A DNA stretch of 35,382 nucleotides from Acidobacteriota bacterium. GTDB lineage: Bacteria; Acidobacteriota; Terriglobia; Terriglobales; Acidobacteriaceae. The translations under genes and the position numbers were made by a program. The notes under the pieces were generated by a model that saw only the letters and a list, made by a program, of their open reading frames with translations, had not been told where the DNA came from and searched no databases. The number at the start of each line of letters is the position of its first letter. Position 1 is the first letter of the stretch. The stretch lies in contig JAKAYS010000014.1 of NCBI GenBank assembly GCA_021826695.1, positions 1 to 35,382 on the forward strand, in the 5' to 3' direction. Shown here piece after piece: positions 3,754-34,646 of this stretch.

Positions 3754-4133
3754 ATCAGCCTGTTAAAAACGAAGCAAAAAAATCGCAGCCCGATTCTGCG
3801 GCAAAACTGCCCGGTGTGGCCGCCATCTCACTCTGGCTGTTGCTCGAAGCGCTGATCGGAGTTGCGGGCGTTTTTACCCATCACTTTGCCAGTCACGCAT
3901 CGCGCCTGGCCGTGCTTGCGGTCGCCACGCTGTTGGCAGTGGCCAGTCTCGGCTTGATGCGACTGCAGCGATGGGGATGGGCGCTGGCGCTGGCGGCGGC
4001 GTTCCTTACCAGTAGCTACGGCATCTATATAATTTTGCGCTTCCACCAATCCAACTACTGGGTGATGACGTTGGTGAACTTCGTCTTCTTCTTCTATCTG
4101 GTGCGCCCGGAGATTTTAAGACGGTTGCGGTGA
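3750..4133 (+). CDS. Small four-helix membrane protein
   Basis: This 127-residue hypothetical protein has a hydrophilic, Lys-rich N-terminus and about four transmembrane segments (near residues 24-44, 50-68, 74-95 and 100-118). It ends in the basic PEILRRLR. The start ATG overlaps the cytochrome stop (ATGA), so it is probably made together with that haem protein and may help anchor or reduce it, which is inference. I do not recognise a named family. The last 40 or so codons are repeated in decayed form at 5075-5193, with many third-position differences, so a second functional copy once existed. Confidence 0.8.
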   Translation: MNQPVKNEAKKSQPDSAAKLPGVAAISLWLLLEALIGVAGVFTHHFASHASRLAVLAVATLLAVASLGLMRLQRWGWALALAAAFLTSSYGIYIILRFHQSNYWVMTLVNFVFFFYLVRPEILRRLR

Positions 4134-4145
4134 GAGTGCTGAAGA

Positions 4146-4979
4146 GTGGATATGGATCGCAGACAGGAACAGCGACTGCTCTTCGCCAATCTAATAACCG
4201 CCAACGCCGGCATCCCTGCTGGCAGCGAAATCGCGGCTGCGTTTGCGTCTACTCCTCGAGAAAATTTCTTAGGGCCGCCTCCGTGGAAAATATTTGCCAG
4301 GTCAGGCTATGTCGAGACGAACTCGGACGATCCAGCGGTCCTGTATCAGGATGTCGTGGTTTCTCTCGGCTTCGATCGACATCTCAACAATGGGCAGCCG
4401 ACCTTGCACGCAATTTGTCTCGCTGCGCTAGCTCCAAAAAAAGGCGAACGAGTGGTCCACGTGGGAGCGGGGACCGGCTACTACACAGCTCTGTTGGCAA
4501 AGTTGGTAGGGGACACGGGGACGATCGATGCGTATGAGATCGAACCGGAGCTTGCGCGGCGTGCCCGCAACAACCTTGCGGAGTTTCCCCAGGTCACAGT
4601 GCATGCCTGTTCCGGAGCGGAAGGGCCGCTTCCTATGTGTGATGTGCTTTACGTGAATGCTGGCGCAACTGCGCCGCTCCTGGTTTGGCTTGATGCTCTG
4701 CGCTTGAACGGGCGACTCCTGTTTCCCTTGGAGCCTGCAATGGAGCCTGGAGCGATGCTATTGATTACCCGGCAAGCAGAGGAAGCTTTCTCAGCGCGCT
4801 TTCTGGTGCAAGCACAATTTGTTCCCTGCATCGGCGCACAGGACGAGAAGATGACGCATCGGCTTGCTCAAGCGTTTCGTAACGGCAACTGGAGCAAGGT
4901 CAAGTCGCTGCATCGCAATGATGCGCCGGACGACAGTTGTTGGTGCTCCGGACCGGGCTGGTGGCTTTCAATGAATTGA
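4146..4979 (+). CDS. Protein-L-isoaspartate O-methyltransferase-like protein
   Basis: This is a SAM-dependent methyltransferase of the PCMT family, which repairs isoaspartyl residues in aged proteins. The 277-residue protein has the PCMT order: an N-terminal helical part with TPRENFLGPPPW (about 37-48), LYQDVVVSL and the GQPTLHA segment (family G-Q-x-I-S-x-P; here Thr-Leu-His, a divergent active-site strip), then the SAM-binding VHVGAGTGYYTALLA (about 105-119) and acidic YEIEPELA. The start is GTG 4146, with ATG 4152 as alternative. The C-terminus (about 60 residues) is less conserved. Given the changed active-site strip, its substrate may not be isoaspartate. It is flanked by a direct repeat (see findings). 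Confidence 0.75.
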   Translation: MDMDRRQEQRLLFANLITANAGIPAGSEIAAAFASTPRENFLGPPPWKIFARSGYVETNSDDPAVLYQDVVVSLGFDRHLNNGQPTLHAICLAALAPKKGERVVHVGAGTGYYTALLAKLVGDTGTIDAYEIEPELARRARNNLAEFPQVTVHACSGAEGPLPMCDVLYVNAGATAPLLVWLDALRLNGRLLFPLEPAMEPGAMLLITRQAEEAFSARFLVQAQFVPCIGAQDEKMTHRLAQAFRNGNWSKVKSLHRNDAPDDSCWCSGPGWWLSMN

Positions 4980-5074
4980 ATTGCAAGCCATCGAGCCGTT
5001 AAAGCTGATTTAGGGCAGAAGCACGCTTAAAATCTAGAAATATAGTGTCACCTTTCACTTCATCCATGCCGTTT

Positions 5075-5193
5075 GGCTACGGCTTATCTCTCATCGTGCG
5101 TTTTCACGAACCCACTACTGGGCAATGACACTGGTGAACTTCGTGTTCTTCTTCTACCTGATTCGCCCGGAGATCCTGCGGCGCCTGCGATAG
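5075..5193 (+). pseudogene. Remnant of a second copy of the small membrane-protein gene
   Basis: Bases 5075-5193 translate to a segment ending HYWAMTLVNFVFFFYLIR followed by PEILRRLR and a TAG stop. This closely matches the C-terminus of the gene at 3750-4133. The upstream part (GYGLSLIVRFHEP) matches SYGIYIILRFHQS of that gene but is in another frame because one base is missing near 5110. Most differences are at third codon positions, so the copy was under coding selection before it decayed. No 5' part is visible, so it is a truncated, frameshifted relic. Confidence 0.8.
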
Positions 5194-5242
5194 AAAAAAA
5201 TAGCGTTAAAGCGTCCGTGGCGGGAGGCTCGCGAGATGCTGG

Positions 5243-6079
5243 CTACGCATGCTTCTTCATCTCTGACGCCAATTCTTCTGCGAACGATTCGGCATCGGAT
5301 TCCTTGACGAAATCCTTTTTCACGGGCATCTTGTTCAAAATATTTTCCGCCTTCACGGCTGCGGGCTTTAATCGTTCATCCTTCGGCTCTCCAATCAATA
5401 AATGGATACGAAAAGGCTCAGCACTGTCGTTCAAATTCGAGGCGCGACCAAGCCATTTGTTTGCCTTGTCCAATATGGACGCAGCCTCCACCATGTCAAA
5501 AGACACCGGCTCATAGACATGCCAAATCTCGTTCTTCCATGACCGCTGGAATTCATAGTCGTAATCTGGAGCAACAATTCGCTTGGGCTTCAGATTTGGA
5601 AGTACGTGAACCCGATCCAATGGGCCTCGGAAAACCCGCCAAACTTCATCGTCGGATCGTCTCGATAGTTCGCCAGCGTCCAAATATTTTTCAACATAGC
5701 GTTGGTACAAGTCCTGTAAAGTTTGATCGAGATTTGAGCTCAGTCCAACACCAGCTTTAGAAAATTGGATGGAGCTATCATCTCGCGGCAGGACTTTAGC
5801 GAGAATTTGTTCGATGCTCCGGTTCGGTTCAAAAGGCAATGAGGATGAATACTCTCTGCCTGCCGATCGGATGCTGTCCTGAATGTGCTGAGACAACTGC
5901 CGGAAGCCGACGCCGTCGATTTTGCAGAATGTCTCACTAATACGACCGTATTTGGTCGTGCATATCGCATTGAGATATTCGGCCTCTGCGGAAAATACAG
6001 CTACGCCGATATTGAGAAACTCCTGCGTAACTGCGTCGTGAATATAACGCAAAACGCTGAAACTGTATGGGACGCTCAT
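5243..6079 (-). CDS. DUF3037 family protein, partner of HipA-like kinase
   Basis: This 278-residue protein starts MSVPYSFSVLRYIHD, followed by QEFLNIGVAVFS and YLNAICTTKYGRIS. That is the N-terminal signature of DUF3037 (hydrophobic strand, conserved E-F-x-N-I-G-V-x-x-F). The remainder is mixed alpha/beta with no catalytic motif I can name. No signal peptide or membrane segment is visible, so it is probably cytoplasmic. The start ATG overlaps the stop of the upstream kinase gene by four bases (ATGA), so the two are translated together. DUF3037 proteins are known as neighbours of HipA-like kinases, but their role is not established. Base composition is AT-richer than nearby genes (28 of 60 G/C at 6001-6060, against 40 of 60 at 7081-7140 in lipA). 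Confidence 0.8.
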   Translation of the reverse strand: MSVPYSFSVLRYIHDAVTQEFLNIGVAVFSAEAEYLNAICTTKYGRISETFCKIDGVGFRQLSQHIQDSIRSAGREYSSSLPFEPNRSIEQILAKVLPRDDSSIQFSKAGVGLSSNLDQTLQDLYQRYVEKYLDAGELSRRSDDEVWRVFRGPLDRVHVLPNLKPKRIVAPDYDYEFQRSWKNEIWHVYEPVSFDMVEAASILDKANKWLGRASNLNDSAEPFRIHLLIGEPKDERLKPAAVKAENILNKMPVKKDFVKESDAESFAEELASEMKKHA

Positions 6080-6861
6080 GCTAAGAACCTCCGAATCTCT
6101 TCGTCAAAATCCAAGGCGTGATCCCGAATCGAGCGAATGTGCTGCGAAATCATTGGCACAGTATCATTGTTCCACTCCTGGGGCACGTCCGTCATTATCG
6201 ATTCAAGCAGCGTATCCGACAGGGTACTCAAGTTTTGGATAAAACCATCCAGATCAATGGGTTTCGATTTCAATTTTCGGTAAAAGACGTGCTCTTGCAA
6301 ATACGCCTCCCGTTCGAGCTTCCAAGGCGTGGTGGAAGGAAAAATGGTTCGGAGAAATGAAAATGCCATCTCGTGATCAAAGATCAAGATGCTGTTCCCA
6401 TTGACAAACAAGTTCGGATTATCGAAGCGACGATCTGGATTTTGTACGAGTGCATCAAACGCAAAGATATCGACAGCGGTTTGCCAGATTGCGTCGGGTA
6501 TGTGCTTATCTACCGGCCAAACGCTGTATCCACTCACTAACTTGGTTCCAAAATTCAAGCCGATGCTGCCGAGGATGTAAGTTTTATTGGACGGCTCGAT
6601 TCCAGAAATTAGTTCTGCCAGATTTTTCTCAATGCGGATCAATGCCGGTTGGGGCGATGCGATTCTGAAATGTTCAGCCAATTCTGCTGCCAAGAGTTCA
6701 CGTAACAGTCCTGATTCACGATCCTCAATTCCACCCCGCAGCTTGACAACATATTCCCCTGCATCTGCCCCCGACGAATCTTCGCAAGCAAAAATTGCCG
6801 GTTTCGTTTTGCCGCTGTCCATAAAACGTGCGAACCGTACGGCAGTCAAAATAGCGGCCAT
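6076..6861 (-). CDS. HipA-like Ser/Thr kinase-fold protein
   Basis: This 261-residue protein of the HipA-like kinase group (COG3550/HipA_2 type) lacks the N-terminal subdomain of full HipA. Visible kinase features are the ATP-binding lysine in EYVVKL (about residue 37), a catalytic loop DALVQNPDRRFDNPN (Asp in NPDRR, then Asn for metal binding) and the metal-binding IFDHE. The start is ATG 6861, with GGAG seven bases upstream; a TTG one codon earlier is possible. No HipB-like helix-turn-helix antitoxin gene is adjacent; its only partner is the overlapping DUF3037 gene. By family it should phosphorylate a protein or tRNA-related target; the actual substrate is unknown. Confidence 0.82.
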   Translation of the reverse strand: MAAILTAVRFARFMDSGKTKPAIFACEDSSGADAGEYVVKLRGGIEDRESGLLRELLAAELAEHFRIASPQPALIRIEKNLAELISGIEPSNKTYILGSIGLNFGTKLVSGYSVWPVDKHIPDAIWQTAVDIFAFDALVQNPDRRFDNPNLFVNGNSILIFDHEMAFSFLRTIFPSTTPWKLEREAYLQEHVFYRKLKSKPIDLDGFIQNLSTLSDTLLESIMTDVPQEWNNDTVPMISQHIRSIRDHALDFDEEIRRFLA

Positions 6862-6987
6862 CAATTACTCCGGCAGATGCGGTCGTAACACGGTAAAACT
6901 TTTGGATCGAAGTATATAACGGTTCTTCGCTCATCGGCTTCAGTTTCACCAAATGTAGTGTAAAACTGCTGGCGACCTCGCTCCGGC

Positions 6988-33292: not shown

Positions 33293-33862
33293 TCAAACTT
33301 TGAATTTCTCGCGGAGCCATTTTAAGACGGCGAGTTGCTCGTCTTGACCTGCTCGTCGAACCTGAGACAGAAGCCAAAGAGCAGTAGGTTTCTCAGTTGT
33401 GATGTTCTTCGCACCCTGGTTGCAGGTCGAACATAGCGTCCGCAGGTTGGAAAGCTCGTCTTTGCCGCCGAGGCTCTTGTCTACTATGTGTCCGATGTGA
33501 AGGCGGGCCTTGCGTCCGGTTTCCGGATCAGTTTCGCTGGGCGTCAAGCCGCACATCTGGCAGGTAAAGCCGTTGCGATCCAGAACTACTGCGCGGAGTT
33601 TCGCAGACATGTTCCTTGAGAAACGAATATTGGAAATCTTCGGTGGCAGTTCTTTCAGTAAATATTGGCCCGGTTTCAATCCTGCGTTGTCGTTGTGGGT
33701 GAGAATCGGCCAGCCTTCATCCTCTCGCAGTTCTCGCACGCGACGCGCCCATTCGCTGACGTTGACACCTGCTGCATCATGTATTTCGTTTGATGTGACC
33801 ACCCGTCCGACGTTGGCAAGGAGGAACTGCCGGATACGCTCTTTCGATCCCGGCTTACGCAT
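33293..33862 (-). CDS. HNH endonuclease, probable type II restriction enzyme
   Basis: The N-terminal half of this 189-residue protein looks like a winged-helix DNA-binding region (SKERIRQFLLANVG, NEIHDAAGVNVSEWARRV). The C-terminal half is an HNH nuclease: zinc knuckles CQMC (about residue 101) and CSTC (about 144), catalytic HIGHIVDKSLGG and NLRTLCSTCN. It overlaps the upstream C5-methyltransferase gene by eight bases (33855-33862), so the pair is coupled as expected for a restriction-modification operon. Recognition sequence is unknown. A role as a stand-alone homing-type HNH is possible but less likely given the overlap. Confidence 0.8.
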   Translation of the reverse strand: MRKPGSKERIRQFLLANVGRVVTSNEIHDAAGVNVSEWARRVRELREDEGWPILTHNDNAGLKPGQYLLKELPPKISNIRFSRNMSAKLRAVVLDRNGFTCQMCGLTPSETDPETGRKARLHIGHIVDKSLGGKDELSNLRTLCSTCNQGAKNITTEKPTALWLLSQVRRAGQDEQLAVLKWLREKFKV

Positions 33863-34646
33863 TGCGCTTCAACTCGGATTCTCCTAGTTTGGTTGCAAGT
33901 AAATACGTCAGCAGTTGCTTGCCGATGAATCGTGTGTAGGCAGGTGGAATTGCCTCGTTCAGTTCATTCTTAGTCATCCAGTTGATGCCCATGGCATCAC
34001 GGGCCGCTGCTATGGTGCAGTTGCCTCCACCCGTTACCTGAACGAAATCTCGCATATCGTCGGTCTTACCATAATGCGACTTTCTTTTGTCGAACGTGTG
34101 AACTTTTGGATGAACTCCATGCTTCGGGGTCAGAATCGCGAAATTCGCTTCGAACAGACGATGACGAAGTACCCTAAGACCCCTAAACATCGTGCCGCAA
34201 AGTACTATAGGATTTCGTAATGGTGCACCATCGACATTCTCGATGATGTAAGGAAGCCCCGAACGCACCAGCATGTCTCTGACCGGTTCTATGAGACGCG
34301 GCCATGCGTCAGCGTTGCCGTTCCGTTTAGCGAGATCGGAATATGACTGGCATGGTGGCGATGCGTGAATTGCATCAAATGTCGAGATAAATTTAGCGTC
34401 AAGCTTTAAAGCATCCGTCCGAATGAAAGGAAATGGGTAATTGGGCTGCGGTTCGATGTCCACTCCAACAACGTCAAATCCTGCCGTACTGTATCCTTTG
34501 GCTGCACCACCAGCGCAGCAGAACAAATCGAGCAGCCTCGGTCTCTGCCCAAGAATAGCAACTGCATTAGTCTCAATGTTCCTTTTGGAAGCGAATCGAC
34601 CCCCATTGTCGGAGATCAGGCTTAAAGTGGCAGGATCAGCGTTCAC
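33855..34646 (-). CDS. DNA cytosine-5 methyltransferase, compact phage-like type
   Basis: This 263-residue SAM-dependent enzyme is predicted to form 5-methylcytosine and protect DNA from the adjacent HNH nuclease. Motif I is LLDLFCCAGGAAKGY (about 38-52), followed by VVGVDIEPQPNYPF. Motif IV ASPPCQSYS holds the catalytic Cys, motif VI is IIENVDGAP, motif VIII RHRLFE and motif X IPPAYTRFIGKQLL. The space for a target-recognition domain between VIII and X is only about 60 residues, far shorter than in Dcm or HhaI, as in phage-borne relatives. The start is GTG 34646, with GAGAGGA eight bases upstream. The gene is AT-rich (25 of 60 G/C at 34381-34440). Confidence 0.85.
   Translation of the reverse strand: MNADPATLSLISDNGGRFASKRNIETNAVAILGQRPRLLDLFCCAGGAAKGYSTAGFDVVGVDIEPQPNYPFPFIRTDALKLDAKFISTFDAIHASPPCQSYSDLAKRNGNADAWPRLIEPVRDMLVRSGLPYIIENVDGAPLRNPIVLCGTMFRGLRVLRHRLFEANFAILTPKHGVHPKVHTFDKRKSHYGKTDDMRDFVQVTGGGNCTIAAARDAMGINWMTKNELNEAIPPAYTRFIGKQLLTYLLATKLGESELKRNA

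Follow-up and report, generated by a model that had tools for sequence, protein, structure and literature searches.

A HipAD-type pair of a HipA-like kinase and a DUF3037 protein in an acidobacterium, with features of an anti-phage toxin-antitoxin module

Two overlapping genes on the minus strand of an acidobacterial contig, encoding a minimal HipA-like kinase and a DUF3037 protein, were assigned by profile matches to the two-gene HipAD / PDC-M66 family, known since 2025-2026. We consider it likely, with a probability of about 0.83, that this copy functions as a defence module of the HipAD type. The features of the pair within the window, that is, the whole 35,382-nucleotide stretch of DNA analysed here, are listed in Table 1. 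According to the ORF listing, the kinase gene is transcribed first and the DUF3037 gene, here called hipD, second.

Table 1. Features of the kinase-DUF3037 pair and its flank, in window coordinates.
Feature	Position	Strand	Details
hipA-like kinase gene (PDC-M66A, Pfam HipA_2)	6076..6861	-	261 aa; ATG at 6861 preferred
hipD-like gene (PDC-M66B), putative antitoxin/regulator	5243..6079	-	278 aa; AF2 model, pLDDT 86.0, pTM 0.52
4-nt overlap ATGA, kinase stop / hipD start	6076..6079	-	ORF coordinates
K40 codon, ATP-binding lysine of kinase (VVK)	6742..6744	-	invariant in 40 aligned kinases
NPDRR catalytic loop (N141-R145; catalytic D143)	6427..6441	-	N141, D143 and R144 invariant in 40 kinases
DHE metal-binding motif (D162-E164)	6370..6378	-	D162 and H163 invariant; E164 in at least 90% of 40 kinases
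DUF3037 domain, HipD residues 7-129	5693..6061	-	Pfam PF11236, E 3e-17
HipD C-terminal domain, residues 139-278	5246..5665	-	VIA matches, all Z <8; tentatively a dead PD-(D/E)XK-like fold
Scar: stray 3' end of a membrane-protein gene, beside hipD	5111..5195	+	native copy at 4051-4133

The kinase matched the Pfam family HipA_2 (PF20613) with an E value of 3.1e-20, while about 140 residues of HipD beyond the DUF3037 domain carry no Pfam name. The kinase ORF has an alternative TTG start, giving 6076-6864, with the ATG as the codon directly after it; residue numbers count from this ATG. In an alignment of the kinases from 39 related loci plus the window, 40 sequences in all, the invariant residues included K40, E55, D136, N141, D143, R144, N150, D162, H163 and H191, and the active site, as judged from its residues, is intact. 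A sequence-only reading of this DNA had given the same coordinates, overlap of four bases and Lys / NPDRR / DHE motif, and these are borne out by the ORFs and the invariant residues.

Among the PADLOC profiles, the kinase matched PDC-M66A with an E value of 1.3e-68 (profile positions 12-269 of 270) and HipD matched PDC-M66B with 3.4e-79 (4-278 of 281). No NCBIfam model was found for either protein, and in PHROGs the two fall in two phage-carried families of unknown function. Published excerpts on homologues describe what such pairs do. A HipA-DUF3037 pair that adjoins Retron-Sda1, assigned by the authors to PDC-M66, is reported to defend against phage Bas51 without need for the retron reverse transcriptase and ncRNA; deletion of the kinase abolished all defence, and deletion of DUF3037 was toxic (PMC12548924, PLoS Biol 2025). 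A second study renames the E. coli system DS-6, validated for defence, as HipAD, crediting HipAD to Brenes and Laub 2025; there, mutation of a catalytic residue of the kinase led to loss of defence, and AlphaFold3 predicted binding of the two proteins (PMC13092281, Science 2026). These homologue tests support the view that HipD would silence the kinase and that defence would need the kinase.

The sequence-only reading had proposed an undescribed toxin-antitoxin or defence-like pair whose role was not established. The first half of this proposal stands, since PDC-M66 is a phage defence candidate in PADLOC and homologues have been tested genetically, but the family is published and hence not undescribed, and the reported homologue tests, in which defence needs the kinase (PMC12548924, PMC13092281), contradict the statement about its role. 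The placing of DUF3037 where an antitoxin would be expected agrees with the toxicity reported on deletion of a homologous DUF3037 gene (PMC12548924).

The phage record PhiR5_1 contains genes annotated as HipA toxin and HipD antitoxin, located between cI and Kil; from these names, we infer that the record stems from the HipAD study. The gene order and the 4-nt overlap are identical to those of the window pair. In pairwise BLASTP, the window kinase and the PhiR5_1 kinase shared 21% identity (E 1e-7), and the two HipD proteins shared 23% (E 8e-13). PDC-M66B spans the PhiR5_1 HipD at positions 7-271 of 281, and both halves of HipD would therefore be common to the window and the phage. The BLASTP and PADLOC matches are independent of our HMM building, the rounds of which could include the same loci, and the HMM bit scores of PhiR5_1 (135.6 and 206.5) were set aside. 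In a tree of 53 kinases, the window sequence fell in an acidobacterial group of nine (98/95) within the 40-row long-partner set, and the phage HipAD fell in another major branch, with long branches. The low identity of 21-23% to the phage HipAD, the separate tree branch and the housekeeping setting of the window pair count against the HipAD reading.

Related pairs are widespread. A scan of genome contigs, from a collection that by its own description holds 84,980 species genomes, yielded 45 loci in Acidobacteriota, Nitrospirota, Bacteroidota, Verrucomicrobiota, Pseudomonadota and other groups, as would be expected from the earlier suggestion that the pair recurs across bacteria. Other scans gave one locus in viral contigs, six plasmid records and two phages. 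A DUF3037 gene lies directly downstream of the kinase in 43 of the 45 loci; the other two are L063, at a contig edge, and L078, which has none. By the script's coordinates, the four-base overlap is present in 33 of the 43 relatives with both genes, and ATGA is also visible at the kinase stop in L038, L056, L061 and L065, for which the script took an earlier start. The correlation between kinase and HipD distances was 0.92 (34 pairs; highest value in permutations, 0.31), which fits the inheritance of the two genes as a unit, although shared ancestry also raises the value. The HipD alignment included 37 of the 45 loci, without five truncated or over-extended ORFs (L038, L061, L062, L065, L076), the duplicate L048, and L063 and L078, which lack DUF3037; the kinase alignment included 39, without L041, L045, L048, L055, L063 and L067.

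Some copies depart from this pattern. At L041 (10001-10785), the kinase match does not lie in a single open frame, the longest ORF being 209 aa, and HipD is intact, suggesting either a toxin-inactivated cassette or an assembly error. On a plasmid of Hymenobacter sp. NBH84 (L084, 5992-6840), HipD consists of two same-strand ORFs split near the domain boundary, and may either be broken or be split by nature. Such broken-looking relatives are what would lead one to suspect that the window copy, too, has decayed and is inactive. We give this next to no weight: both window genes are complete, the catalytic residues are intact, and dN/dS was 0.075-0.17 for both genes in the comparisons of the window with two relatives, close to the value of 0.079 for lipA. 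These ratios suggest that purifying selection acts on both genes.

The window's own genome (G000, C211) holds a second pair of a HipA_2 kinase (289 aa) and a DUF3037 partner (299 aa), at L142 (2278-4059), between genes for a terminase large subunit (4184-5923) and a portal protein (695-2050), i.e., in a phage packaging module. The catalytic loop of this kinase reads VDKWTCNSNGR, with D-x4-N kept. The idea that it is a pseudokinase, with NSNGRQ in L002 taken as loss of the catalytic Asp, was rejected when the alignment showed D-x4-N to be retained.

In the window, the pair is flanked by a gene for a PCMT-type methyltransferase (by Pfam) and by lipA (named from its translation), and stands by itself, surrounded by what look like housekeeping genes; the window does not constitute a defence island. 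The pair has a GC content of 47.7%, compared to 56.0% and 57.5% in the equal-length flanks and 57.0% in the window, so that it is AT-richer than both flanks, as previously stated; only 4 of 676 sliding windows of equal length had a GC content as low. The GC3 of the two genes is 0.52-0.53, while 23 of the 24 other tabulated genes fall between 0.58 and 0.76; the exception is the gene at 33855-34646, with 0.49. This exception belongs to a region (33293-34646) near the window edge in which a DNA methyltransferase-like gene (PHROG DNA methyltransferase, E 6e-43), with the lowest tabulated GC3, overlaps a partner gene, and which may be a second mobile or restriction-modification island. A search by ORF length for a HipB-like gene in the gaps on both sides of the pair found at most 62 aa (5073-5260) and 34 aa (6851-6952). 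Because the gaps hold no ORF longer than 62 aa, no HipB-like gene is hidden beside the pair, and DUF3037 is the only partner, in agreement with the reported lack of a helix-turn-helix antitoxin. The region upstream of hipA was aligned for the three close copies, and we claim no conserved operator; a promoter scan gave 3 matches, compared to a shuffle mean of 2.4, i.e., no excess over shuffles.

Within the genus, the pair is present in three of ten genomes (the window, G253, at the window's site, and G257) and at two sites in total. In G257, the pair has a membrane-protein gene on one side and a dienelactone-hydrolase-like gene (assigned by inspection) on the other, and these two genes are adjacent, with no pair between them, in G252 and G254. 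At the window's site, G252, G254, G256, G257 and G258 have a different large ORF, and no HipAD, ahead of lipA. The scar beside hipD is a stray 3' end of the same membrane-protein gene that flanks the pair in G257; its identity is 80% with the native copy, and 88.6%, 84.6% and 85% with the genes in G258, G252 and G257, respectively. On the simplest reading, the cassette came from a relative with the pair at the G257 site and carried a piece of the flank along. Recent tandem duplication was rejected as the source of the scar, since the repeat resembles the genes of the congeners more closely than it does the native copy.

Signs that the pair has moved between sites, patchy presence and toxin-antitoxin-like anatomy, together with relatives carried on prophages and plasmids, would also be expected if a true toxin-antitoxin pair merely maintained itself, as a selfish addiction module with no real benefit against phage. 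We find this improbable, in view of the protection against phage reported for homologues (PMC12548924, PMC13092281) and the clustering of relatives with defence genes beyond the control set. Of 322 neighbouring ORFs selected, by mechanical choice, 211 were scanned, with L048 left out as a duplicate and matches counted per model. Among 105 upstream ORFs from 39 loci, taken up to three places from the pair, a single type I methyltransferase model accounted for 11 matches and a single specificity-subunit model for 8; among 106 downstream ORFs, REase_I matched 2, BrxC 2, SspB/C/D 2 and mad8 3. In 103 control ORFs, comprising 28 from the window (excluding the pair) and 75 from congeners, and thus drawn from one genus plus the window rather than matched by phylum, matches were confined to nine models, with at most three each. 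The proposed survey of neighbourhoods for defence genes has thus found type I restriction-modification, BREX and Ssp genes to be frequent near relatives, beyond the control set. A methyltransferase-like cluster adjoins 9 of 44 loci. The window copy itself has no type I restriction-modification, BREX or Ssp neighbours. At L037 (7151-14702), the order is hsdM - hsdS - hipA - hipD - hsdR, with gene names assigned by inspection, and the pair appears to be embedded in a type I restriction-modification operon.

A sister lineage of the kinase has a different partner. In a sample of the class, a kinase match was present in 49 of 250 genomes, and 29 of the 48 besides the window belong to the window's own family; the long-partner type is represented by the window and three others (L006-L008). 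At 19 of 19 loci of the same class examined with wider flanks (L123-L141), a HipA_2 kinase is followed by a short gene with DUF3037 only, of 127-145 aa where the ORF start is unambiguous. In the two cases tested, the short partner covers the PDC-M66B profile only up to position 128. Housekeeping genes, for example glycogen synthase or secD-like genes (named from translations), lie on either side of several of these loci. PDC-M66A matched kinases of this lineage with E values of 1e-25 and 2e-21, and the phage HipA with 6e-15. Since the profile fits these non-defence-looking kinases better than the phage HipA, a PDC-M66A match alone is no proof of defence. The window pair might, by extension, be a chromosomal regulatory or housekeeping pair in which HipA_2 phosphorylates a host protein under regulation by DUF3037, with phage defence incidental. 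The frequency of the kinase in the class and in the window's family, the 19 sister loci and the housekeeping surroundings that the window shares with several of them point in this direction. But the window lies outside the sister lineage, its partner is about 280 aa long, the pair is patchy (3/10), AT-rich and accompanied by a recombination scar, and its relatives adjoin restriction-modification genes; we thus regard a regulatory pair as unlikely. As the short partner consists of DUF3037 only, this domain is presumably the part that holds the kinase, and the C-terminal half of HipD would be an addition that senses or regulates.

AlphaFold2 models of both proteins were compared with solved structures. 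The kinase model (pLDDT 95.8) aligned over its whole length with CtkA, HipT and HipA in VIA: with CtkA at Z 16.3 (rmsd 3.3, 213 residues), with Legionella HipT at Z 13.5 (rmsd 3.6, 198 residues) and with HipA 3dnv at Z 12.5 (rmsd 3.4, 204 residues). The HipD model reads as two parts. Residues 139-278 matched BstEII best (Z 7.7, rmsd 4.1, 131 residues), followed by Cdn1 (Z 7.3), BsoBI (7.2) and PspGI (7.0). The VIA rows for HipD ranged from Z 5.2 to 7.7, and 17 of 50, including the top five, were nucleases or of nuclease fold when sorted by title; many of the rest were GTPases, and very few concerned the N-terminal domain. Foldseek found no match to HipD in the PDB at E up to 0.001, and no credible sequence relatives of HipD were found among solved structures. 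We tentatively consider the predicted C-terminal domain to have a restriction-endonuclease-like (PD-(D/E)XK-like) fold. The triad of such nucleases is usually D...(D/E)xK. The conserved positions of the domain (F177, W181, N183, K205, W209 and G211) include no such triad, and if the domain is nuclease-like, it is therefore probably catalytically dead. DUF1829, reported in DS-6B (PMC13092281), was looked for with Pfam and not found: with E values of up to 1, no family matched the C-terminal half of the window protein, and DUF1829 did not match the PhiR5_1 HipD. A viral DUF1828 protein was a weak structural match to HipD (rank 5, E 5e-4, TM 0.29-0.31).

The window pair can be compared with four described systems. 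Like HipAD / DS-6, it consists of two genes, a HipA-like kinase followed by a DUF3037 protein, without HipB; the PhiR5_1 HipAD is phage-borne, whereas the window copy is chromosomal. With the Retron-Sda1 pair, it shares the PDC-M66 assignment, a likeness established through the profiles and not through the Sda1 sequence. No retron was seen beside the window pair, and the sole reverse-transcriptase-type match among the 103 control ORFs was one DRT. With E. coli HipBA, it shares the kinase fold and active-site plan, but HipA is ≈440 aa long (436-448 aa in solved chains), compared to 261 aa here. HipA 3dnv aligned with the window kinase only from HipA residue 147 on, and the N-terminal subdomain of HipA is absent. 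The partner in HipBA is the helix-turn-helix protein HipB, whereas here it is DUF3037, encoded downstream of the toxin gene. The compact kinase resembles that of HipBST (E. coli, Legionella). That system, described as “tripartite”, has three genes (eLife 2023), with separate HipS and HipB; in the two-gene window cassette, DUF3037 stands in place of both.

If the window pair is indeed a working HipAD-type module, the minimal HipA-like kinase would be the toxin, and HipD, translationally coupled through the ATGA overlap, would restrain it through the DUF3037 domain. Phage infection would disturb HipD or its level and relieve the inhibition, and the freed kinase would phosphorylate a host or phage protein, so that growth stops and the infection aborts; for kinases of the HipA type, an aminoacyl-tRNA synthetase would be the first target to consider. 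The C-terminal domain of HipD would probably bind DNA, either for self-repression of the operon or for phage sensing. That the window copy acts in the same way is inferred, as are what triggers it, what the kinase modifies and what the C-terminal domain does. A more specific version, which we regard as possible though doubtful, is that HipD is a two-part gate, in which DUF3037 holds the kinase and the dead restriction-endonuclease-like C-terminal half senses phage DNA and frees it. If true, this would explain why relatives occur beside, and once apparently inside, type I restriction-modification operons.

The kinase family occurs with DUF3037 partners of two kinds, one carrying the C-terminal domain and one lacking it, and this contrast hints at how the two halves of HipD may divide the tasks of neutralising the kinase and of sensing or regulation. 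With the pair, the range of an anti-phage toxin-antitoxin family that was validated only recently would come to include Acidobacteriota and many other phyla.
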